Assembly (NCBI GenBank): GCA_902778455.1
Contig: CACYXR010000011.1
Location: 1-64,000, forward strand
Origin: an uncultured Selenomonadaceae bacterium
GTDB lineage: Bacteria > Bacillota > Negativicutes > Selenomonadales > Selenomonadaceae
Length of the DNA: 64,000 bases
Direction of reading: 5' to 3'
Notes under the pieces: generated by a model
Databases searched by the model: none
Told to the model about the DNA's origin: nothing
Seen by the model: the letters and a program-made list of their open reading frames with translations, nothing else
Program-made: the position numbers and the translations under genes
Part shown: positions 4,251-63,838 of the stretch, piece by piece
Layout: every line of letters begins with the position of its first letter
Numbering within the stretch: position 1 is the stretch's first letter

Positions 4251-5441
4251 TTATGTCCCTTCAATCAGTTTCTTCCGGGATCGCAGGAACAGGGCGAGGG
4301 AAAAAAGCACGCATCCTGCCACATAGAAAACGTATTTCATGCCGAACACCGTTGCCACCACGCCGCCGAGGACTGGGCCGAGGATCGAGCCGATCTGCTG
4401 GACGGCGAACATCATGCCGAAGATGCTGCCCTTGACGTCGGGGGAGGTGTTTTTCGCCAGCAGCGCGTTGATGGAGGGATGGACGGCGCAGAAGAAGACG
4501 CCGCAGACGAACTGCATGGCGGCATAGATATGGAGGTTTGTCACCGAGCCCTGGATGAAGAGACCGACGCCCGCCAGCGGGATCGCGGTCAGAGCGGCGC
4601 GCAAATACCCCTTGTGCTGGCCGAACCAGCCCCAGGCCGGGGCGGCGATGACGCCCGCGAAGCCGCCGAGGGAAAAGATCATGCCGGAGACGAAAATGAT
4701 GTTCGGCAGCTCGCCGGCGAGGGACGTGATATAAGTGGTCATGATCGGCTGAAGGATCAGGATGACCATCTGCATGACTGCCGAGGCGCAGAGCAATGTC
4801 CGCAGCACGGGAATCTTCAGCAGCGCCAGAGGGCTGGGCGCGGGCGCTTTCTCTGCGTTCTTTTTCCGGGACGGGGCCGGCGGTTCCTTGATGACGAAAA
4901 TGAAAATGATGCAGTTCAGCATCAGCGCGGCGGAAGCCACGAAAAATGAGGCGCGCATTCCGAAAGCCTCGGCCAGCACGCCGCCCAAAAGCGGACCGAT
5001 GACGCCGCCGGCGGTCATCGCACTTTGCATGACGCCGAGGCAGACGCCCAGCTTGTCCGGCGGCGCGTACATCGTCATGATCGCGAGATCCATCGGCCAA
5101 AGCCCCGCAGCGAAGCCCTGGAAGATGCGCATTCCGACAAGCTCCAGCGGCGACGAGACGACGCCGCCGAGGAAATAGCTGACGGACAGCAAAAGGCTCG
5201 CGCGGATTGCCATCATCCGCTTGCCGTGGGTGTCCGCCATACGTCCCCAGATCGGCCCCATGATCGCGCTGACCACGAAGCTGGCCGAGAACACGGCGCC
5301 CGACCAGAGATTGACATCCTCCATCGGCACGCCCAGCTCATGGGTCAGATACATCGGTAAAAAGGGAATCAGCATCGTATAGCTTGACGCCATGAAAATG
5401 ACGTTGCCTGTCAAAACGGCGAGCACAACTTTCCAATTCAC
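4251..5441 (-). CDS. MFS multidrug/drug-H+ antiporter-like transporter
   Basis: 396 aa with about 12 hydrophobic segments. The loop 2-3 motif of the major facilitator superfamily is visible as GPIWGRMADTHGKRMM. A drug-antiporter-like motif C region follows (GGVIGPLLGGVLAEAFG), and a second copy of that pattern appears in the C-half (GSILGPVLGGVVATVFG). These features suggest proton-driven export of a small molecule or drug. The start is preceded by GGGAGGGAAG. No linked regulator gene is visible. Confidence 0.85.
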   Translation of the reverse strand: MNWKVVLAVLTGNVIFMASSYTMLIPFLPMYLTHELGVPMEDVNLWSGAVFSASFVVSAIMGPIWGRMADTHGKRMMAIRASLLLSVSYFLGGVVSSPLELVGMRIFQGFAAGLWPMDLAIMTMYAPPDKLGVCLGVMQSAMTAGGVIGPLLGGVLAEAFGMRASFFVASAALMLNCIIFIFVIKEPPAPSRKKNAEKAPAPSPLALLKIPVLRTLLCASAVMQMVILILQPIMTTYITSLAGELPNIIFVSGMIFSLGGFAGVIAAPAWGWFGQHKGYLRAALTAIPLAGVGLFIQGSVTNLHIYAAMQFVCGVFFCAVHPSINALLAKNTSPDVKGSIFGMMFAVQQIGSILGPVLGGVVATVFGMKYVFYVAGCVLFSLALFLRSRKKLIEGT

Positions 5442-5518
5442 GACGCTTCCCTCCCTTCGATGTGTCTTTTCATTTTAGCACTTTTGTGGCGGTTCAGCGG
5501 AAGTTTTTTGCGAAAGAA

Positions 5519-5534
5519 TGTTTCACGTGAAACA
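5519..5534. other. parS: parS site (ParB/Spo0J binding), copy 1
   Basis: TGTTTCACGTGAAACA, a perfect 16-bp palindrome identical to the Spo0J/ParB consensus parS. ParB spreads from such sites and loads SMC to organise and segregate origins. It is in the gap between the MFS gene and the symporter gene. About 45 bases around it are repeated at 7142-7189. Confidence 0.9.
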
Positions 5535-5659
5535 AACGAACGTAACATGAAAATAAAATGAAAATATTTGCCGGGCTTGTGAAATGTTTTGCGGTTTGTT
5601 TCTTGCGGCGAAAAGCATTATAATATGAGGGATTTCTGTGGCAAAAGAGGTGAAACGGT

Positions 5660-7039
5660 TTGGAATTGTCTGCGGCGCATATCGGATTTATGCTGGCGAC
5701 GGTGGCGCTGGTCCTGGGCGGCGGCATTTACGCGGCGCGCTCCGTGAAATCGGCGGAGGGGTACAGCCTCGGCGGGCGCGCGGCGGGCGCGCCGATGGTG
5801 GCGGGCACGATTGCCGGCACGGTCATCGGCGGCAGCGCGACGGTGGGGACGGCGCAAATGGCTTTTTCCGTCGGGCTGTCGGCCTGGTGGTTCACGCTGG
5901 GGTCCGGCATCGCGTTCATCGTCATGGGGCTGTTTTACGCGAAGCGGCTTCGTGCGTCGGGGCTTACGACGATTCCCGAGCTTTTGGTGAAAAACTACGG
6001 CGCGAAGGCGGGCGTCGTCACCAGCGTCGTCGCTTCGATGGGCATTTTTTGCAGCGCGGTATCCACCACGCTTCCCGGCGTCGGCATCCTGTCGGCGGTG
6101 CTGGGAATTTCGCCGTACGCGGCGGCGGGCGTGCTGCTTGCGCTGGTCGTGCTTTACGTCTTTTTCGGCGGCATGAAAAGCGCGGGGGTGGGCGGCATAT
6201 TGAAAATGGCCGTGCTTTGGGCGAGCCTCGCGGCGGCGGGAATCGTCGCTTGCGGCGCGCTGCCGTCGGGCGCGGATTTTTCGGCGGCGTTTCCCGGGGG
6301 CGGCTGGCTGAGCCTGTTCGGGAACGGCGTCGGCAACGGTCTTGCGCATCTGGCGTCCATGCTCGTCGGTATCCTCTGTACCCAGACGTATGTGCAGGCG
6401 ATTTTCTCCGCATCGAATCCGAGAACAGCGGCGTTGGGCGCGTTCCTGGCGGCGCTGATCGTGATTCCCGTCGGGCTTCCCTGCGTCGCCGTCGGTCTGT
6501 ATATGCGCGCCTTTGAGCCGGACGTCTCGCCCCTGCTCGTGCTGCCGATTTATCTCGCCGAGCATTTGCCCCCGTGGCTGGGCGGCGTCGCGCTGGGCGG
6601 CGTCATGCTCTCCATCGTCGGCTCCCTCGGCGGGCTGGCTCTCGGCGTCGGCACGATGATTGCGAAAGATATCCTGGCCCGGGCGTTTTCCGTGGAGGAC
6701 GAAGGCAAAAAACTGCTGCTGCTGCGCATCGTGGTTCTGGTGGTGGTGGTGTGCGCCTGCGCGACGGCCATCGCGAACATGGGGATGCAGGTACTGATTT
6801 TGACTTACCTTTCCATGGCGCTGCGTGGCGGCGGCATTTTCCTGCCGCTGACGCTGGCGGTGTTTCGCCCGAAATGCGTCGCCCCGCGCTGGGCGCTGCT
6901 GTCGATGATAGTTTCCACCGCCGTCGCGGTGCTTTTCTCGACGGTGCTGACGCCCCCCGTCAACCCGCTGTTCATCGGCCTCGCGGTCAGCGCCGTGCTG
7001 CTCGCGCCGGGGCTTATCGCAGCGCAAAAAGTGGAATAA
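5660..7039 (+). CDS. Sodium:solute symporter family protein
   Basis: 459 aa, about 12-13 hydrophobic segments. The N-terminus has the SSS signature (YSLGGRAAGAPMVAGTIAGTVIGGSATVG), followed by the TTIPELLVKNYG loop found after TM3 in these symporters. Members use an Na+ gradient to import sugars, amino acids, nucleosides or vitamins; the substrate is unknown here. The TTG start is supported by AGAGGTGAA 6-8 bases upstream. A remnant of a second copy of its 3' end is at 7578-7652, and its 5' flank with the parS site is duplicated downstream. Confidence 0.85.
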   Translation: MELSAAHIGFMLATVALVLGGGIYAARSVKSAEGYSLGGRAAGAPMVAGTIAGTVIGGSATVGTAQMAFSVGLSAWWFTLGSGIAFIVMGLFYAKRLRASGLTTIPELLVKNYGAKAGVVTSVVASMGIFCSAVSTTLPGVGILSAVLGISPYAAAGVLLALVVLYVFFGGMKSAGVGGILKMAVLWASLAAAGIVACGALPSGADFSAAFPGGGWLSLFGNGVGNGLAHLASMLVGILCTQTYVQAIFSASNPRTAALGAFLAALIVIPVGLPCVAVGLYMRAFEPDVSPLLVLPIYLAEHLPPWLGGVALGGVMLSIVGSLGGLALGVGTMIAKDILARAFSVEDEGKKLLLLRIVVLVVVVCACATAIANMGMQVLILTYLSMALRGGGIFLPLTLAVFRPKCVAPRWALLSMIVSTAVAVLFSTVLTPPVNPLFIGLAVSAVLLAPGLIAAQKVE

Positions 7040-7065
7040 CATTAACAGCCTGAGAAAAAGGAACA

Positions 7066-7112
7066 AAAACGTGCGCTTGACGTCAAAAAGCCGTCAGGCG
7101 CACGTTTTCTTT
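7066..7112 (+). terminator. Terminator of the symporter gene
   Basis: AAAACGTGCGCTTGACG / CGTCAGGCGCACGTTTT stem (7067-7108) followed by TCTTT. A near copy lies at 7685-7728. Confidence 0.85.
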
Positions 7113-7145
7113 ATGGATTTCGTATTACAAAGAAAAACGAAAAAA

Positions 7146-7161
7146 TGTTTCACGTGAAACA
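7146..7161. other. parS: parS site (ParB/Spo0J binding), copy 2
   Basis: A second exact TGTTTCACGTGAAACA palindrome, 1,627 bp from the first. The flanks are also shared with copy 1 (AAAC-AAACGAAC-TAACATGAAAATAA pattern), so it arose by segmental duplication rather than independently. Confidence 0.9.
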
Positions 7162-7230
7162 AACGAACATAACATGAAAATAAGATGAAATGCAAATAAT
7201 CTTCCCATGCCTTGTCCTGCCATACCTTTT

Positions 7231-7497
7231 TCATTCGTCGGCCTCGATCAGTTCATGCTCTTTCAGGACGCTTCGTCCTGCTTCGACGTCTGCGATTGCC
7301 TTTTTCAATCGAGCCATATTGGCTTCGCTGAAAAACGGATCGGCTACGATCTCGAAAGGGATTTTTTGCTCTTGCGTCACTTTTGCCGCGAACATTGTAA
7401 ATGCGGAGGTCATCGTGAGCCCCATTTTTTTGCAGGTCTTTTCCATATTGCTTTTCAAGGCTGCGTCCATTCGGAAATTTACCATTGCTTGTGCCAT
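7231..7497 (-). CDS. RelB/DinJ-family antitoxin, orphan
   Basis: 88 aa. It starts with a ribbon-helix-helix segment (MAQAMVNFRMDAALKSNMEKTCKKMGLTM..., RelB/DinJ style) and ends in an acidic tail of the kind that wraps a RelE/YafQ-type toxin. ATG 7497 is preferred: GAAGGTG lies 6 bases before it. No toxin gene follows on the minus strand; the next features are a parS site and the symporter terminator. It may act on a toxin elsewhere or be a solitary regulator. Confidence 0.8.
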   Translation of the reverse strand: MAQAMVNFRMDAALKSNMEKTCKKMGLTMTSAFTMFAAKVTQEQKIPFEIVADPFFSEANMARLKKAIADVEAGRSVLKEHELIEADE

Positions 7498-7520
7498 GTC
7501 TATCACCTTCTTCCATCGTT

Positions 7521-7577: not shown

Positions 7578-7652
7578 GACCCTCCGTCGGACGGTTCACC
7601 GAGCTGGGCGCTGCTCGCGCCGGAACTGATTCTGGCGCGAAAAGCGGATTGA
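7578..7652 (+). pseudogene. 3' remnant of a duplicated symporter gene
   Basis: Read in frame to the TGA at 7650-7652 this gives 24 residues, DPPSDGSPSWALLAPELILA..., which align with the last residues of the symporter at 5660 (TPPVNPLF...AVLLAPGLIAAQKVE). The homology continues past the stop through the AGAAAAAG.AACAAAAAACGTGCGCTTGACG stretch into the terminator. The rest of this second copy is gone; the RelB-like gene occupies its place. Confidence 0.65.
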
Positions 7653-7684
7653 CCTTATCAACCTGTATATAGAAAAAGAAACAA

Positions 7685-7728
7685 AAAACGTGCGCTTGAC
7701 GTAAAAATACTGTCAGCGCACGTTTTCT
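7685..7728. terminator. Duplicated terminator, shared by vapC
   Basis: AAAACGTGCGCTTGAC / GTCAGCGCACGTTTT stem, a diverged copy of the hairpin at 7066-7112. It overlaps the last codons of vapC and has A-runs on its left side, so it can also end transcription on the minus strand. Confidence 0.7.
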
Positions 7729-8120
7729 TCAGCCCAATCTTCCACGCGCAAGCCGGGAATACGGCAAAATTCTTTCGTATTATGCGTTACGACAACTAGA
7801 TTCCTGGCGACGCCTTGTGCGCCTATCATCGCGTCATAGACCCCAATCGGAGTACCGCGGGATGCAAGCTCTGCCCGCAGCTTACCAAAATAAATAGCGT
7901 CCATTTCGTCAAACGGAATAATCTCGTAATTCGCAAGAAAAGCTTGAAAAATTTGTCTTGTACGCTCTCCCCAGCGACTCTTGGCCGCGCCATATTCCAG
8001 TTCGCCCACAGTAACGGAAGAAACAAAAATCGATTTCTGTTCTTCGAGAAGTCTTTGACCTAATGAAGGGAATGTCCCTTTCATTGCGTAGATGCAAATA
8101 TTTGTATCTATCAAAAACAT
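7713..8120 (-). CDS. vapC: VapC-type PIN-domain ribonuclease toxin
   Basis: 135 aa PIN domain. The acidic pocket residues are visible: Asp5 in LIDTNICIY, Glu in SSVTVGELEYG, and Asp in IGVYDAMIGAQ; the final THNTKEFCRIPGLRVEDW block is typical of VapC. Family members cleave tRNA or rRNA when released from VapB. The 5' end overlaps the vapB 3' end by 10 bases, so the two are translationally coupled. Confidence 0.9.
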   Translation of the reverse strand: MFLIDTNICIYAMKGTFPSLGQRLLEEQKSIFVSSVTVGELEYGAAKSRWGERTRQIFQAFLANYEIIPFDEMDAIYFGKLRAELASRGTPIGVYDAMIGAQGVARNLVVVTHNTKEFCRIPGLRVEDWAEENVR

Positions 8121-8356
8121 CCCATGGCCTCTCTTTCAGGCAGATCGGTCAGCATCGGCTGTTCTCTCTCGAATGGCGTGTCTTTATCCATTTGTCCAAG
8201 GCTCTGTTTTAACAAGGCTTGCGGATCGTCTACCGGAATCAGATAATAGCAGTTTCCGTATTTTTTGATAATGAACTCGGTTTGATCTGTCTGCATCTCT
8301 TTAGGTATGCGTATCGCTTGGCTGTTTCCGCTCTGAAAAACTTTTGCCTTCAACAT
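8111..8356 (-). CDS. vapB: VapB antitoxin (AbrB/SpoVT-fold DNA-binding)
   Basis: 81 aa. The N-terminus MLKAKVFQSGNSQAIRIPKEMQ is the swapped-hairpin AbrB-type DNA-binding domain of VapB proteins. The C-terminus (DKDTPFEREQPMLTDLPERE) is acidic and would block the VapC active site. It is the first gene of the vapBC operon and probably represses it through the palindrome at 8376-8396. Confidence 0.9.
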   Translation of the reverse strand: MLKAKVFQSGNSQAIRIPKEMQTDQTEFIIKKYGNCYYLIPVDDPQALLKQSLGQMDKDTPFEREQPMLTDLPEREAMGCF

Positions 8357-10486: not shown

Positions 10487-11191
10487 ATGGAGACGCTTGG
10501 AAATCTGATTTTCATTTTGCTAATTTTGGTAGGCGTTTTTGTCTTTTCTTACAACCGCCTACAGAAAAGTGCGCAGAATGTCAAGAAATGGCAATCGAAT
10601 ATTCTGGCGCTGCTTCAAAAGTATGCGGATTGCATCAACAAATTGCAGGAAATCGTGGCCAATTATGCCGCGCATGAAAAATTGGTTCATTTGACCATTT
10701 CCAGCAACCTCACGGAAATGGTCAAGTCCACAAACAATGCGATGATCAATATCCAGGCATTGGCGCAAAGTTATCCGGCCTTGCAGGCGAATCAGAATTA
10801 TCAATCGTTGATGTGGGAGGTCTCGAATATCCAAACCCAACTACAGCAGTGCCGTTTTACTTACAATGAAGCGGTTTCCGTTTACAATGGGCTGATTTCG
10901 ACCATCCCAGAGGTTCTTTACGCTAAATCGCTCAACTTCAACGAGGCTCCGTATTACAATCCGGAACAGGAAGCGGAATTGCAAACCTTTACGACGGATG
11001 ACGGCACTGCGCTGAAAGAGCTTTTGCATAAGGGCGCAAGCATGACGATGGACGCCGCGCAGAGCGCGAAAAACAGTCTGCAATCCGCTGTTCAGGGGCA
11101 GACGGAAAAGAACACGGACGGTCAGGAGAAAGCTGCGCAAAGGGCTGCGAATAGCGAACAAGCGCAGGGAGGAAACGCTGCGAAAAAGTAA
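10487..11191 (+). CDS. LemA-family protein
   Basis: 234 aa. One N-terminal membrane helix (residues 5-22, out-facing start), then a four-helix LemA-type bundle with the family pattern SYPALQANQNYQSLMWEVSNIQTQLQQCRFTYNEAVSVYNGLI (quoted only in part: YPALQANQNYQSL, RFTYNEAVSVYN). The C-terminal 60 residues are Gln/Ala/Lys-rich and probably disordered. LemA proteins are membrane-anchored with unclear roles in envelope stress or protease systems. It is 31 bases after the ankyrin gene, inside the same operon. Confidence 0.8.
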   Translation: METLGNLIFILLILVGVFVFSYNRLQKSAQNVKKWQSNILALLQKYADCINKLQEIVANYAAHEKLVHLTISSNLTEMVKSTNNAMINIQALAQSYPALQANQNYQSLMWEVSNIQTQLQQCRFTYNEAVSVYNGLISTIPEVLYAKSLNFNEAPYYNPEQEAELQTFTTDDGTALKELLHKGASMTMDAAQSAKNSLQSAVQGQTEKNTDGQEKAAQRAANSEQAQGGNAAKK

Positions 11192-17254: not shown

Positions 17255-18760
17255 ATGGCGAAGTTTTGCAAGCATTGTGGCAGCGAATTGAAAGAAGGAA
17301 AGAAGTTCTGCGCGAAGTGCGGCACGCCGACGGGGGACGCAGTCGGTGCCTCGCCGAGCGCTTGGATTTGCCCTGCCTGCGGGCATGAGAACGCGAAGGG
17401 GAAATTCTGTGCCAAGTGTGGCGGCGGAAAGCCGGAGGAAGCTCCGGCTGCGTCAGTGGAAGAGCCCACGCCGCAAACGGACGAACGTAAAGCTGTAATT
17501 GCTCAACCGAGTGGTTCACCGAACACTTGGATTTGCCCCGCCTGTGGGCATGAGAACGCGAAGGGGAAATTCTGCGCCAAATGCGGCGGGGGAAAGCCGG
17601 AGGAAGCTCCGACTGCTCCGGCGGAATCTCCTGCGATTGAAGACGCGCCCACACCGTCTAAGGAAAGCGACGCTGTGCCGACGCCTTCCGGTTCACCGCC
17701 GGAAAGATTGGTTGCTCCTCCTTCGCCAACGAAAAGTATAGAGGCTGCACCGACGCCGAACGTACAAAACGACGTCCTGCCACTGTCCCCCGAGCAATCG
17801 CCAAAACTGAGCAATAAAAAATTGCCGATCCTTCTCGCGATCCTCGTTGTGGTGGCAGTAGCGGCCTTTTTCGGCAGCGGGAAGCTGGCAGATTCTTATT
17901 ATGCGTCGAAAGCGGAGGAATGCGCCGCCGTTTTGACGGAGAGCAAGACGCTGTTGGACAATCTTGCCGAGACGCCCGCAGATGCCGCGTCGGACGATGT
18001 GAAAAAAATCGCGGATGGACTCGCAAAAAACGCGGAAAAGCTCGAATCCATCAAAAGCGGCATTATGAGCAAACTGCCCAGAAAACCGCATCAAGAAAAA
18101 GTTTGGAACGCCATCGGAAAGAACGCGGAGATGCTTTCCAAGGCGGCAGCTATGGTGCAGTCGCAGGAACGCGCGTTTAATCCGGCGAGCATCAAGCGTT
18201 TCAACGCGCTTGGCGACGAGTGCATGGTCAAATGGGACGAGGCGAACGCGGCGGCTTCGGAAACGACGGTCAAGAACCGGCCGCTTACGGATTTGGTTCC
18301 CTATGCGGACATCAAAAAGGATTTGCAGGCGTTCCGCAGGAATAAGCAGGCATTTGACGCAAAATATGCGCAGGACAAATATAACGAACGCCGGAAGGAA
18401 CGGCAGGCCGCGCAGGAAGAGCTGAAAAAGAAACCCGAAGTCGTATTCCTTGCGGATAACGCTTATAAAAACGGAACCGAGCTCGTTTTAGAGGGGCGCT
18501 TTTACAATGGGACGCCCGATCTCGTGACCGGCGTTATCGATATGGAAGTGGATGTGAAGCTTTCCCTGTGGGACGCGGAGGTACAAAGCCTGACGAACGA
18601 GCCTTGCGCCTTGAACCTGACAGGGCTGCAGCTTGCACCGCAGCAAGCGACGGGCGCTGTGCAGCTCCGGTTGCAGGGGAAAGCGCCGGAAGGGGATTTC
18701 AACGATTTTGAGGATCATGTGCATAAAATCCGTTGGAGCCGGATGAAGGCTCGTTCATAA
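17255..18760 (+). CDS. Zinc-ribbon membrane protein D (three zinc ribbons)
   Basis: 501 aa. Three zinc ribbons: about 5-23 (CKHCGSELKEGKKFCAKCG), then two near-identical CPACGHENAKGKFCAKCGG units about 55 residues apart, encoded by a DNA direct repeat. A Pro/Ser-rich linker, one membrane helix (about 190-208, LLAILVVVAVAAFFGSG) and an extracytoplasmic domain of about 290 residues follow. That domain is helical and Lys/Ala/Glu-rich, ending in a beta-rich FxRRF-like part (LVLEGRFYNGTPDLVTGV). It resembles other zinc-ribbon/YvbJ-like membrane proteins in layout. Partner and role are unknown. Confidence 0.75.
   Translation: MAKFCKHCGSELKEGKKFCAKCGTPTGDAVGASPSAWICPACGHENAKGKFCAKCGGGKPEEAPAASVEEPTPQTDERKAVIAQPSGSPNTWICPACGHENAKGKFCAKCGGGKPEEAPTAPAESPAIEDAPTPSKESDAVPTPSGSPPERLVAPPSPTKSIEAAPTPNVQNDVLPLSPEQSPKLSNKKLPILLAILVVVAVAAFFGSGKLADSYYASKAEECAAVLTESKTLLDNLAETPADAASDDVKKIADGLAKNAEKLESIKSGIMSKLPRKPHQEKVWNAIGKNAEMLSKAAAMVQSQERAFNPASIKRFNALGDECMVKWDEANAAASETTVKNRPLTDLVPYADIKKDLQAFRRNKQAFDAKYAQDKYNERRKERQAAQEELKKKPEVVFLADNAYKNGTELVLEGRFYNGTPDLVTGVIDMEVDVKLSLWDAEVQSLTNEPCALNLTGLQLAPQQATGAVQLRLQGKAPEGDFNDFEDHVHKIRWSRMKARS
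17361..17618 (+). repeat. Direct repeat encoding duplicated zinc ribbons
   Basis: Bases 17361-17453 and 17526-17618 are about 93-base direct repeats, 165 bases apart, differing at only a few third positions. Each encodes one WICPACGHENAKGKFCAKCGG unit. It is a recent in-frame duplication. Confidence 0.85.
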
Positions 18761-58634: not shown

Positions 58635-58652
58635 GGAAAGAAGGTTTGCACC

Positions 58653-58889
58653 ATGTCGATCAACAAGAACGAACTCACTAAAGCACAGGTCGCGAAGGCT
58701 ATGCAGTGCAAGACTGCCGACGAGCTGATGGCGCTGGCGAAGGGCTCGGGATTTGACATTACCAAAGAAGAAGCCGAGGCGTATATGGCGGAGCTGGCCG
58801 ACGTCGAGCTGGACGAAGCGCAGCTGCAGAAGGCGGCCGGCGGCGGATGCTACCCGGACTGCAAAAACGATTACTGCTTCGAAAACTGA
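58653..58889 (+). CDS. Nif11-leader RiPP precursor peptide 2
   Basis: 78 aa. The leader (1-64) is clearly paralogous to the first (AKAMQCKTADELMALAKGSG, KEEAEAYMAELADVELD, QKAAGG). The core is only 14 residues, GCYPDCKNDYCFEN, with cysteines 66, 70 and 75. Both cores open with C-x3-C containing an aromatic residue and an acidic or amide residue (CWDNC; CYPDC). It starts 18 bases after the first gene. Confidence 0.8.
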   Translation: MSINKNELTKAQVAKAMQCKTADELMALAKGSGFDITKEEAEAYMAELADVELDEAQLQKAAGGGCYPDCKNDYCFEN

Positions 58890-58898
58890 TAACACCAT

Positions 58899-58941
58899 GG
58901 AAAAGGGCCATGCAGGCGATTTCTCTGCATGGTCCTTTTCC
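58899..58941 (+). terminator. Hairpin after the precursor genes, possible attenuator
   Basis: GGAAAAGGGCCATGCAG / CTGCATGGTCCTTTTCC stem (58899-58941) without a true T-run (GTGTGTT follows). It may partly stop transcription or stabilise the precursor mRNA, giving more precursor than enzyme. Confidence 0.5.
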
Positions 58942-59033
58942 GTGTGTTATAATGGAAATTGCAGGCACTGCGGCGTAAGATGCAGGCGCGCTTATCCCAA
59001 CCGTTGGAAGTATGGAAAGAGGGGATGGGACCC

Positions 59034-61013
59034 ATGAAAAGCAAGGAAAAACGCGAAATCTATTTCTTCAGCCGTTTGGCGAAGTCGATTTACGAGGACG
59101 CCGAAGCGCTGGACGCGCTGCACTATTGCCGCCGTTTCACCGACATATTGAGGACTTTGCAATATTACGGCTATCTGGCGGACATGACGCTGAACGAATA
59201 TGTCGAGACCGCGCTGAAGGCGGCCGACGACCTCAAATACTTCCTCGACCCGGATACGGGCGATTTTTCCGAGGACGCGGTGTCCAACGCGGACGAGGCG
59301 GCGTTCAAAGGATCCTTTCAGCAGCACCACGACCTGATCCTGCAGCTGATAGGCATTTCCGACGGCCCGGCTCTCTTTCCCCTGATCGTGGAAGTGGAGA
59401 ACGGAAAGGTTCGCGGCAATCTGGAGCGCCTGCACCGTGTAGCGCAATGGTTCGGCATACCCTACGCCGCGTCCGCGTCGGGCGAAAACCGCTGGCGCAA
59501 GCCGCAGCCTGCGCCGCGGATCGAGCGCGTGCTGAACTGCACGAAGCCCGGCGAGCGGAACCTCCAAATCGCGTACGGCAAAACGGTCGGCGCAGAGGGC
59601 AGGCTGACCCTCAATATCTGCCGCCGCAATTCGCCGGATCGGGGACTGCCTGTCATGGTGTACTTCCATGGCGGCAATTTTCAGACCGGGCAGGCGGAGG
59701 AATGGCTGGGCAACAAGTTCAGCGAGTCGCTGAACGTCGTCCACGTCAGCGTGGAGTACCGTCTGGGGGCGCTGGGCTTCAATCCGCTCCCCGCGCTTCG
59801 GACCGGCGACGCGGAAGAGGACAGCGGCAATTTCGTGCTGCTGGACATGATCGCTGCGCTGCGGTGGGTGCAGCGGAATATCGCGGCCTTCGGCGGCGAC
59901 CCCGGCAACGTGACTGTCAGCGGTTATTCCGCCGGAGGACGCGCGATCGCGGTATTGTTGACCAGCCGCCTGGCCCGTGGGCTTTTTCATCGGGCCGTCT
60001 GCTTCAGCGCCGGCTTCCTGGTCTGCGAGCCGGAGCCTTCGCGCAGGATTTTCGCGGAGCGCTTCGCCCCTCTGGCGGTGGAGGACGGCGTAAAGAAATC
60101 AAAAGAGGAAGCGGAGGCATGGCTGCTTTCCGAAGCCGAGGAAGACCTGAAAACGGCGCGTCAGTGGCTTTACGGTCTGCCCGGCGCCCGCCTAGCCGGC
60201 ATTTTCCCGCCCGCGTGGGGGCGCATGGAGCTGTTCCCGATTTTCTTCCGGGACGGAACCGTGGTGCCGTCGGCGTCCTTTGACGATCCCGATATGAACC
60301 ACGTTCCGGTGCTCGTCTTTTACAGCACGGACGAGTTCAGCCTCCTGGCCGACGCCGATACCTGGTTCCGGCAGCGGCGGAAAGCGCAGACGCCGGAAAA
60401 TCCGGATGCGACGCTGGAACAGGATAAGGCCTTCAGTATAAAATACGGCAGCCTGATCTGGGGGGATTTCAATTCCCACCGGCTGGCGGAGAGCCTGTAC
60501 CCTCATCTGGGCGCGCCCATCTATATCGGGAAGTTCCATTACGGTCATGAGGCCAAGGATTTCGGCGAGGAATTTACCCGTCGGTACGGCGCCCTGCACG
60601 GCGTGTACCTGCCGTTCCTGACAGACCAATACAAGAGCCCGTGGAAGCGGGGCAACGATTTTTTCGAACATGCGGGGGCCGAGTATCTGGGCTCGCAGCT
60701 TTTCAGCTATATCGGCCAGTTCATGGATACCGGCGACCCGAACTTCGATGAAAGGGAAACGCAGTGGAAGGCGTGGACGCCGGAGCAGCAGTTTGAACTG
60801 TTTTTCGACGGCGACAGGCAGCGCGGCTATGTGAAGCCGGGCATGAACGAGTACAGCTTCGAGGAAGTGGCGGCCCGGTTTGACGCCGATACGTCGGTCT
60901 CGGATGAAAGCAAGGCGTTCATCGCCGGCCATGTTTTCAATCACCGCATTTTCAGCCGCGCGTGGGACGCCCGCTACGGGAATCCGCCCGATCCGATGCT
61001 GAGCAAACCGTGA
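59034..61013 (+). CDS. Type-B carboxylesterase family protein, cytoplasmic
   Basis: 659 aa alpha/beta hydrolase. An N-terminal extension of about 180 residues (helical, not part of the family) precedes the catalytic domain. Oxyanion loop VYFHGGNFQTG, nucleophile motif VSGYSAGGRA (GxSxG), a Glu in FYSTDEFSLL and His in ALHGVYLPFL complete the triad pattern. No signal peptide. ATG 59034 is used because GAGGGGA lies about 9 bases upstream. Its gene follows the two precursor genes, so it may act on the peptide or its product; that is inference. Confidence 0.75.
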   Translation: MKSKEKREIYFFSRLAKSIYEDAEALDALHYCRRFTDILRTLQYYGYLADMTLNEYVETALKAADDLKYFLDPDTGDFSEDAVSNADEAAFKGSFQQHHDLILQLIGISDGPALFPLIVEVENGKVRGNLERLHRVAQWFGIPYAASASGENRWRKPQPAPRIERVLNCTKPGERNLQIAYGKTVGAEGRLTLNICRRNSPDRGLPVMVYFHGGNFQTGQAEEWLGNKFSESLNVVHVSVEYRLGALGFNPLPALRTGDAEEDSGNFVLLDMIAALRWVQRNIAAFGGDPGNVTVSGYSAGGRAIAVLLTSRLARGLFHRAVCFSAGFLVCEPEPSRRIFAERFAPLAVEDGVKKSKEEAEAWLLSEAEEDLKTARQWLYGLPGARLAGIFPPAWGRMELFPIFFRDGTVVPSASFDDPDMNHVPVLVFYSTDEFSLLADADTWFRQRRKAQTPENPDATLEQDKAFSIKYGSLIWGDFNSHRLAESLYPHLGAPIYIGKFHYGHEAKDFGEEFTRRYGALHGVYLPFLTDQYKSPWKRGNDFFEHAGAEYLGSQLFSYIGQFMDTGDPNFDERETQWKAWTPEQQFELFFDGDRQRGYVKPGMNEYSFEEVAARFDADTSVSDESKAFIAGHVFNHRIFSRAWDARYGNPPDPMLSKP

Positions 61014-61038
61014 GATTAGACTATATCGTATAAGTATC

Positions 61039-61069
61039 AGCGCAGGGCTTCGGCTCTGCGTTTTTTCTT
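61039..61069 (+). terminator. Rho-independent terminator after the esterase
   Basis: CGCAGGGC-TTC-GGCTCTGCG stem (61041-61060) followed by TTTTTTCTTTTT, 26 bases after the esterase stop. Confidence 0.8.
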
Positions 61070-61143
61070 TTTGGGGAAGGAACCCGGGAACCGGGTGTAG
61101 AATATCTCATTGTCTATATGATGGGAAAGGGGATAAACGGTTT

Positions 61144-61740
61144 ATGAAAACGATGTCGGGAATGGCGGGCGCGGTCATATTGTGCGCGGGGATGCTGCTT
61201 TCTTTTTCCGCTTACGCAAACGGCGGCGAATATGAGGACAATATCGCTGCCGTGGATGCGTTCAAGGCGGCGGCTGTCAAAAACGTCGGGCACGGGAAGA
61301 AGGTTTATTTTGCAAGCCCGATGTTTAATCACGCGGAAAAGGAGTTCAATCTGAAAGTTACAAGAGTGCTTGAAGATTATGGCTATCAGGTCTTCCTGCC
61401 GCAGCGCGACGGCATTGAAGCCGCGACGCTGGAGGGCAAGTCGGAAGAAGAGATGATAAAGATGATTTTTGCGTTGGACTCCACAGAGGTAAAGAATGCG
61501 GATATCGTCTTTATGAATATCGACGGCCGGGTGCCCGATGAAGGGGCTTGCGTCGAGCTCGGCATGGCCTACGGTATCGGCAAGCGGTGCTATGGTTTCA
61601 AAACAGATACCCATTCCGTGGAATTGGGGCTGGACATGAATCCGATGATCAGCGGCTGCATGATCAAGTTTTTCAAGAATTATGACGGTGATCGGCTGAT
61701 AGAGGAAATACAGCGGTACTTGTCCGAGAACGCGCTTTAA
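61144..61740 (+). CDS. Secreted nucleoside 2-deoxyribosyltransferase-like protein
   Basis: 198 aa. A signal peptide (about 1-25, ending SAYANGG) precedes a deoxyribosyltransferase-type domain: VYFASPMFNHAEKEF, LEDYGYQVFLPQRDGI, ADIVFMNIDGRVPDEGACVELGMAYGIGKRCYGF. The Asp-Gly and Glu in ACVELGMAY match the catalytic Asp/Glu of the family, which swaps bases between deoxynucleosides. A secreted member is odd. It could instead be an exported sugar-nucleotide or peptide-acting relative. Start follows AAAGGGG. Confidence 0.7.
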   Translation: MKTMSGMAGAVILCAGMLLSFSAYANGGEYEDNIAAVDAFKAAAVKNVGHGKKVYFASPMFNHAEKEFNLKVTRVLEDYGYQVFLPQRDGIEAATLEGKSEEEMIKMIFALDSTEVKNADIVFMNIDGRVPDEGACVELGMAYGIGKRCYGFKTDTHSVELGLDMNPMISGCMIKFFKNYDGDRLIEEIQRYLSENAL

Positions 61741-61787
61741 GAGGTATTTGTATTGGCGAATTGATTCCAACAAAGGGAGGTATTTTG

Positions 61788-63608
61788 ATGAATCGTTTGA
61801 AATTTTCAGGATCGTGGAAGAAAAGGCTGGCGGCGTCCTTGCTGCCTCTTTCCGTGCTGTTGGCGGCGCCTGCGGACGTCCTTCCTCAGACCGGGCAGAG
61901 TCTCGTCAGTGCCGCAGCGGCGATGGAACAAGAGACGGAGGGACGGGAATTGAGTGCGACGGAAGAGCAGCCGAAGGCGATCCATGAGGCGAAGGAACTG
62001 TTGAGAGCGCAATACGGCGAGAACAGACAGATCACCGACGGAAATTATGACAAAGCACTGGCCGTCAAGTGCGTAAACGGCACCTTCGTCGGCAGGAAGA
62101 CGGAGAATATCATCGCGTACAGGGGCATTCCCTTTGCCGGCAAACCGCCCGTCGGGGAACTGCGCTGGAAAGCGCCGGTGGACGTCGTGGCCGACGACGG
62201 TATATATGAGGCGTATTACAATGCGAAAAGCGCTTACGGGAATGAGCAGTTGGAAACAGGTTCTCTTTTCTATCAGGATGAAGACTGCCTGTATCTGAAT
62301 ATATGGAAGGCGGATGAAGCGTCTTTGTCGGCGGACGCAAAAGCGGCGCATCCGGCGCCTGCGTCCGCACTAGCGCATCCATGCGCGTCGAAGAAGCCGG
62401 TCATGGTTTGGATCCACGGCGGCGCTTTTGAGGCGGGCGGGACGGTGGACCCGATGTTCGACTGCCACGATTTCGTGAAAGAGAACCCGGACGTCATCGT
62501 CGTCACCATCGCATATCGGCTCGGACCTTTCGGTTTCCTGCACCTGTCCCACCTGCCGGACGGCAAAGATTACCCGGACGCGCAGAACCTGGGGCTCATG
62601 GATCAGATGATAGCTTTGAAGTGGGTGCATGAAAACATCGCGGGCTTCGGCGGCGATCCCGGCAATGTGACCATCTTCGGCGAGTCCGCCGGCGCCGCAA
62701 GCTGTACCCTGCTTCCGCTGATGAAAGGCTCCCATGCGTATTTCAAGCGGGTCATTGCCCAGAGCGGTTCCCCGAACCAGACGAGATCCGCCGAAGAAGC
62801 CGCCGGCTGCACGAATGAACTGATGGAAATCCTCGGCTGCAAGACCGCTGCCGATTTGCAGAAGGTCGACGCCCGGAAGATTTTCGAGGCGTCAGCCGTG
62901 CTTTCGATGCGTCAATTCCCGGAAAGGGACGGAAGCCATTTGCCTTTGGATACCTATGAGGCATACGCGAACGGCGCAGCGAAGGATATAAATATTCTTC
63001 AGGGCTGCAACAAAGATGAATTTGACTTTTTCGTGAGCGGCTTCGGCGTGGAAGGGTTCCAACAGTGGGCCGCCGAACGCAAGGCGAGGGGGCTTGGCAA
63101 GCTGTCGGATGAGGAGAAAAAGCTTATCGAGAGCTTCCAAAGTGATATCAAGGGAGAAAGCTGGGAACGGGACAGCCGTCTGTTCAGCCAGGTCTGGTTT
63201 ATAGCGCCGGTATTCAGGCTGTCGGAGGCCCAGACGAAGGCCGGCGGTAAATCGTACACCTATTATTTCACGCCGGAATCTTCGGTTCCGATCATAAAAT
63301 GCGGACATTCGATCGAGCTTGCGTCCGTATTCAATCACCCGGAGATGACCGGCGACACGGGGAGAGTCTTTGACGCAGCCTTCTCAAAGACCATGCGCAG
63401 GATGTGGGTCCAGTTCGCCAAGACTGGCAATCCGTCGCTGAGCGCGGACATCTCCCCGGACGGCAAGGCGAAGGAGTGGCCGCTTTACGACTTGAAGGAC
63501 AGGAAGGTGATGGTGTTGGACGAGTTCAACATCCATCCCGAAAAAGAATCCGAGAGAAAGATCGTGGATTGGGACAGAACCTATTTCCTGACCAAAACGA
63601 TGTTCTGA
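61788..63608 (+). CDS. Secreted type-B carboxylesterase (PnbA family)
   Basis: 606 aa. An N-terminal signal peptide or anchor (MNRLKFSGSWKKRLAASLLPLSVLLAAP) is followed by a helical linker and the esterase domain from about residue 75. Catalytic Ser is in TIFGESAGAASC, Glu in CNKDEFDFF, His in IIKCGHSIELASVF; the oxyanion loop is VWIHGGAFEAG. It hydrolyses ester bonds outside the cytoplasm. ATG 61788 is fixed by GGGAGGT about 9 bases upstream. It shares fold but little sequence with the cytoplasmic esterase at 59034. Confidence 0.85.
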   Translation: MNRLKFSGSWKKRLAASLLPLSVLLAAPADVLPQTGQSLVSAAAAMEQETEGRELSATEEQPKAIHEAKELLRAQYGENRQITDGNYDKALAVKCVNGTFVGRKTENIIAYRGIPFAGKPPVGELRWKAPVDVVADDGIYEAYYNAKSAYGNEQLETGSLFYQDEDCLYLNIWKADEASLSADAKAAHPAPASALAHPCASKKPVMVWIHGGAFEAGGTVDPMFDCHDFVKENPDVIVVTIAYRLGPFGFLHLSHLPDGKDYPDAQNLGLMDQMIALKWVHENIAGFGGDPGNVTIFGESAGAASCTLLPLMKGSHAYFKRVIAQSGSPNQTRSAEEAAGCTNELMEILGCKTAADLQKVDARKIFEASAVLSMRQFPERDGSHLPLDTYEAYANGAAKDINILQGCNKDEFDFFVSGFGVEGFQQWAAERKARGLGKLSDEEKKLIESFQSDIKGESWERDSRLFSQVWFIAPVFRLSEAQTKAGGKSYTYYFTPESSVPIIKCGHSIELASVFNHPEMTGDTGRVFDAAFSKTMRRMWVQFAKTGNPSLSADISPDGKAKEWPLYDLKDRKVMVLDEFNIHPEKESERKIVDWDRTYFLTKTMF

Positions 63609-63670
63609 GACATTATTTGCTGAAGCAACCTGGCGCAAGCGCCCTCGGGGGAAGGCAAGATGAGCGAATT

Positions 63671-63838
63671 TTAAGGAAGCACTGATTAAGTCAAGTCGTG
63701 GCCCTGTCGAGGGATTTTTTCGTCAGGCAAGGAAAAGTGCTCGAAGTCGTAGCAGAGCTACGTCGAGAGCACTTTGACGCAGCATGACGGAAAAAGACCC
63801 GTCAGGGGCGCGGCGGGACTTATTCAGTGCTTCCTTAA
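63671..63838. mobile_element. 168-bp palindromic MITE-like element
   Basis: Ends are perfect inverted repeats, TTAAGGAAGCACTGA...TCAGTGCTTCCTTAA, and the inner sequence is complementary almost throughout (AAGTGCTCG..GTAGCAGAGC region near the middle; GACTTA/TAAGTC near the ends). The whole folds into one long hairpin. It codes for nothing. This is the form of a non-autonomous transposable element; a partner transposase would be elsewhere. Between 63609 and 63670 is only a half of a GC-rich palindromic repeat. Confidence 0.75.

Follow-up and report, generated by a model that had tools for sequence, protein, structure and literature searches.

A dispersed, lineage-specific and probably mobile parS-bearing repeat in a Schwartzia-like genome of the Selenomonadaceae

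Two perfect copies of the centromere site parS lie on either side of a symporter gene, which raises the question of whether they form an ordinary pair near the replication origin or belong to something else. They are found in the first 64,000 nucleotides of contig C11 (C11:1-64000, hereafter the window) of a 2.6-Mb draft genome, in 34 contigs, from a Schwartzia-like rumen bacterium of the Selenomonadaceae. The reading that we favour, and consider fairly probable, is that a dispersed, lineage-specific and probably mobile repeat bearing parS has spread candidate ParB-loading sites chromosome-wide. The features of the locus are as follows (G008, G009 and G010 are relatives of the window's genome):

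4251..5441, - strand: MFS transporter, divergent neighbour of the symporter
5511..5564, + strand: dispersed parS repeat element, copy 1 (parS plus AACGAACGTAACATGAAAATAAAATGAAAA)
5519..5534, + strand: parS preceding the symporter, a perfect 16-bp palindrome and one of the genome's 52 exact copies
5660..7039, + strand: sodium:solute symporter (Pfam SSF), between two direct parS elements
7065..7112, + strand: hairpin resembling a terminator, behind the symporter and with a T-rich tail (GTGCGCTTGACG...CGTCAGGCGCAC), read directly and conserved in G008 and G010
7138..7190, + strand: dispersed parS repeat element, copy 2, at the same site in G008, G009 and G010
7146..7161, + strand: parS beyond the symporter terminator, likewise a perfect 16-bp palindrome
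7231..7506, - strand: gene for a RelB-family antitoxin, an insertion that separates parS copy 2 from the symporter remnant
7597..7733, + strand: remnant of a second symporter 3' end and terminator, without parS
7713..8120, - strand: PIN-domain toxin (VapC-like)
8111..8356, - strand: antitoxin to the PIN toxin, matching the MazE/AbrB type weakly and under the Pfam cut-off

The two parS sites of the symporter locus

As the original prediction stated, the parS sequence, TGTTTCACGTGAAACA, matches the consensus without a mismatch at both 5519-5534 and 7146-7161, and the parS-type specificity residues of the genome's sole ParB (see below) support these being true parS sites. No third site was found in the window at up to three mismatches. 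Both sites lie inside a 53-bp direct repeat (5511-5563 and 7138-7190, 94% identity) and, when their flanks were run against the genome with BLAST, 49 related places sharing the extended sequence were recovered. The similarity around the two sites is thus explained by a genome-wide repeat family, and gives no evidence that the site at 7146 came with a duplication of the symporter, as had been proposed. Part of that proposal stands, since a decayed symporter tail with its terminator is indeed found at ~7597-7733 (78% identity to the first copy, 82% to the G008 relative); however, neither parS lies within this remnant, which abuts the PIN toxin directly.

The presence/absence pattern of the two sites also differs among relatives, and a common origin through the symporter duplication is therefore not supported. 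The region between the MFS and symporter genes has no parS in G001, G003, G007 and G010; G006 has a related parS there, and in G009 the site is broken up by an inserted hairpin. The downstream site, at 7146, is common to G008, G009 and G010, and the counterpart of element copy 2 is the sole non-origin exact parS of G008. It is plausible that the remnant arose by unequal crossing-over between the direct elements flanking the symporter and then decayed, in which case the duplication would result from the repeats, and not the repeats from the duplication.

The suggestion that the locus displays the multiplication of parS was right in spirit, as an element is doubled around a cassette in G010, although the mechanism put forward for it finds no support. 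Where G008 has a single element, G010 has an element, toxin/antitoxin genes and a second element, with the left and right flanks of G008 kept outside; either the cassette and the second element were gained, or they were lost in G008 by recombination. The bracketed genes (L237:2330-3122), RelE-like and Phd-like by eye, lie exactly between two direct parS elements, a possible cassette exchange point. In addition, this part of the window is 90-93% identical to G008 against a background of ~81%, which suggests that the segment may have moved between lineages, carrying parS along. As a separate observation, the carboxylesterase-like genes at 58638-63611 of the window are 87-94% identical to the parB-adjacent genes of G008 (L267:823-6277) and, given an identity well above the same ~81% background, were likely exchanged recently.

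A repeat family spread along the chromosome

Genome-wide, 52 exact copies of parS are present, where ~0.0004 would be expected by chance, and 34 clusters are obtained when one-mismatch copies are included. About eight copies form the ordinary origin cluster beside parAB, and the other ~44 are dispersed, mostly in an intergenic repeat of ~50 bp with the consensus (cgaaaaaa)-TGTTTCACGTGAAACA-NNN-GAACATAACMTGAAAA-NNNN-ATGAAAA. Aligned on parS, the copies show high information from about -9 to +30 and approximately zero beyond, and GAACA is found exactly 3 bp from parS in 47 of the 52 exact copies. Besides single copies, the family includes composite pairs in direct orientation, spaced by ~131 bp and separated by a hairpin, pairs in inverted orientation (56-57 bp apart), and tight pairs at a distance of 34-36 or 48 bp. 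The single copies, when aligned, have no terminal inverted repeat, and the empty sites in relatives are too diverged for a target duplication to be read. A search with the extension alone gave 42 close matches (0-1 mismatch), nearly all adjoining an intact parS; at C9:70594, seemingly without parS, the site is split by a hairpin of ~56 bp. The degree of conservation is about the same for parS and for the extension, so that selection on ParB binding and recent copying cannot be told apart. None of the 26 scored elements of the window's genome lies inside a gene, and copies occur between co-directional, convergent and divergent genes, with no preference for promoters.

The hairpin at C9:70594 is not an isolated case. 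The same ~56-bp structure (TTAGARRCTGTTGAAAGCG..AGCTTTTTACAGYCT..TTATGCAGGTGCAGCCT) repeatedly splits parS directly after TGTTTCACGTGA, as seen at L229 (G009, near 1350, - strand), L033 (the C9:70594 case), L052 (C24:72883), L055 (C27), L107 and L272:15602. It folds well as single-stranded DNA (z -3.9) and may be a second, very small element with parS as its target.

To place the copies on the chromosome, the complete relative G078 was used as a position map (2.568 Mb, with parB at 2.553 Mb and a change of skew near 1.28 Mb); the mapping, through orthologues, assumes that gene order is conserved between genera, so the distances are approximate. On this map, the 24 mappable clusters lie 12-1,206 kb from the origin, and the origin-proximal 20% of the chromosome holds six of them, about what a uniform or random placement would give. 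Contigs free of sites are somewhat closer to the terminus (p=0.048). Confinement of parS to the origin domain (~20% of the chromosome), a usual though not absolute feature of these sites, is thus absent here. The median distance between the window's genes and the origin is 400 kb, on arms of 1,284 kb, and the predicted origin-proximal position is not supported. The SRP RNA and tRNA-Ser genes that had been taken as pointers to the origin are real, but the orthologue mapping lends them no such meaning, and with 52 exact copies in the genome the parS pair is useless as an origin marker. In practice, exact parS cannot serve to locate the origin in this lineage.

An ordinary origin-proximal pair, with a second site from tandem duplication of the symporter segment, would fit two exact sites in direct orientation, 1.6 kb apart and followed by a true remnant of the symporter tail and terminator. 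Against it stand the genome-wide copy number, the distance of ~0.4 Mb from the origin, the lack of parS in the remnant and the unequal distribution of the two sites among relatives, and we consider it very improbable.

The ordinary origin cluster can be recognized by comparison with G008, whose exact sites number four, and where parB-parA is accompanied by sites at 11109, 12896 and 12930, and by a one-mismatch parS at 17457. The counterparts of these sites in the window's genome are found at C9:145486, C27 and C31, about eight copies, with the same parS-NNN-GAACA architecture as the dispersed ones. At C27:1553-1602, C9:145486 and C31:23924-23973, the palindrome GAACAWATGTTC, or a variant of it, lies after or between the origin sites; it resembles a Bacillus SOS box. 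The assignment of GAACATATGTTC, between origin parS sites, as a LexA/SOS box was rejected, because the regions upstream of recA in G008 and in the reference G078 have no such box.

Orientation with respect to replication

The leading strand was read from local GC skew over 6-8 kb, and leading-strand coding fractions of 0.77-0.80 support these strand calls. In the window's genome, the extension runs along the leading strand in 22 of 25 independent clusters (p=1.6e-4), and in other genomes at 48 of 56 loci (p=5e-8; these are related species and not all independent), an orientation bias of the kind that marks IS200/IS605- or REP-type elements. The polarity is kept between flanking genes of mixed direction (10/11 in the window's genome and 21/28 in the others) and therefore tracks replication and not transcription. 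As a control, a 165-bp MITE-like repeat in the same DNA was unbiased (8/13 and 6/19), whereas the elements recomputed in the same way gave 19/22 and 40/49. Strand inference from orthologues only is weaker (12/19), with 8/9 where the orthologue and skew methods concur. The control repeat, found in the window at 63674-63838 with terminal inverted repeats AAGGAAGCACTGATTAAGTC / GACTTATTCAGTGCTTCCTT, has many copies here and in G008, and adjoins parS elements at C9:88862, C19:40257 and C22:5763.

The palindrome could also be the operator of another regulator, with a regulon of ~35 loci and GAACATAACMTGAAAA as the second half. The intergenic position and the fixed parS-NNN-GAACA spacing would be in line with this; however, there is no preference for promoters, the orientation follows replication, the ~50 bp of shared sequence exceeds an operator, and the genome's ParB would be expected to bind the palindrome anyway, so that we regard such a role as highly unlikely.

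A preferred direction relative to the replication fork suggests one of two things. New copies of the parS-bearing repeat may arise on the single-stranded lagging-strand template, via some transposase or annealing process, or else only one direction of the element may be tolerated. In the explanation that we favour, a ~50-bp non-coding, intergenic repeat with a perfect parS core would have dispersed over most of the chromosome in the Schwartzia-like lineage, adding to the ordinary origin cluster next to parAB, and its direct copies would recombine, gaining or losing the genes between them, such as toxin-antitoxin cassettes. Both the mobility and the recombination are inferred. If the repeat is mobile, a centromere site would be copyable like a transposable element.

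A related explanation, which we consider possible but less probable, is that the repeat is selfish and MITE- or REP-like, and that its palindrome functions in transposition, as a hairpin end in single-stranded DNA; the identity to parS would be a by-product, or captured once from the origin, and the host would merely tolerate the binding of ParB. The extended copies, the composite ~131-bp tandem units and the inverted 57-bp pairs would agree with this, as would the patchy copy number, the hairpin inserts within the same palindrome, and a replication polarity like that of IS200/IS605 elements, which target the lagging-strand template (PMC6006769). On the other side, a Y1 (IS200/REP-type) transposase, sought as PF01797, had no match in the window's genome, and was rejected as the mobilising partner. 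Moreover, the origin copies share the parS-NNN-GAACA architecture, and the element therefore looks derived from a working centromere. In comparison with known IS200/IS605 derivatives, REP sequences and MITEs, the parS repeat is likewise short, non-coding, intergenic and palindrome-bearing, with a copy number that varies between close relatives, and its polarity is similar to that of lagging-strand-targeting elements; it differs in the lack of a Y1 transposase in the genome and in having a perfect centromere site as its core, with the target duplication unread. A phage or plasmid source was also rejected, as the extended pattern had no hit among IMG/VR viral contigs and the element none among PLSDB plasmids.

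ParB, SMC and the numbers of parS sites in other genomes

The genome encodes one ParB-family protein (a single TIGR00180 match), and a second ParB or Noc behind the extra sites was rejected on this basis. In its alignment (IGRSRSHIANFLRL...LTMGQAK), R and G are found at the equivalents of R173 and G201 in Caulobacter numbering. The protein also contains the GERR motif of CTP binding. The residues R173 and G201 mark parS-type specificity of ParB (PMC7383237). SMC is full length in the window's genome, and complete or nearly so in most of the genus; its loss was therefore rejected as the reason why dispersed parS would be tolerated. With nearly all cores being exact parS, and with a standard parS-type ParB and SMC, loading of ParB at the dispersed copies seems likely, and would create many ParB/SMC loading points. 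A polycentric chromosome, in which the polar repeat has put ~44 working loading sites from origin to terminus, the extension and parS act jointly, and ParB loading along the entire chromosome is used or tolerated by the cell, goes further and seems to us possible but doubtful.

The system agrees with chromosomal ParABS of the parS/Spo0J class (Bacillus subtilis, Caulobacter crescentus) in the 16-bp parS, the recognition residues of ParB, the parA-parB-parS cluster at the origin, and SMC. In the literature, parS numbers range from 1 to 20, with most sites in the origin-proximal 20% of the chromosome (PMC10197239, PMC7022226), whereas here 52 exact sites are present, five times the ten of B. subtilis (PMC7022226), with ~44 outside the origin cluster and mostly in a dispersed, polar repeat. 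Scattered parS sites have been noted in few lineages (PMC8357415); those of Bacilli are alike in that several sites are spread widely around the origin, but the ones described here share ~50 bp of sequence and reach into the terminus region. A literature search, of incomplete coverage, did not turn up any description of dispersed parS repeats for this group. In experiments, parS far from the origin carries a strong cost, especially mid-arm in Caulobacter (PMC5815017), and SMC that loads at scattered sites is believed to run into collisions (PMC8357415). Close relatives that range from 4 to 52 exact sites offer a natural experiment on chromosome organisation by ParB and SMC when loading points are many.

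The extended pattern was found in 80 stretches, nearly all from other Selenomonadaceae or Selenomonadales assemblies; the labels of the relatives that carry the element read Schwartzia sp., Selenomonadaceae or Selenomonadales, and many of these relatives come from rumen samples. Within the genus, the number of exact parS is patchy, from 0 to 52 per genome. Most of the 107 genomes of the family have 0-7, the exceptions being the window's genus (up to 52), G070 (40), and two other genera (10 and 14). In G070, the 40 sites include tandem arrays of 5-9 exact parS, spaced by about 40 bp (~35-75 bp), on contigs C31 and C179 (L295). Among 398 genomes of the phylum, more than eight exact parS occur only in the window's genome and in two genomes of one unrelated genus, G340 and G473 (family f47, genus g199), with 69 and 30 sites, respectively. 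In G473, most sites are concentrated on one contig, and the shared extension is missing from the few flanks that were read, which points to a separate route to many parS in that genus.
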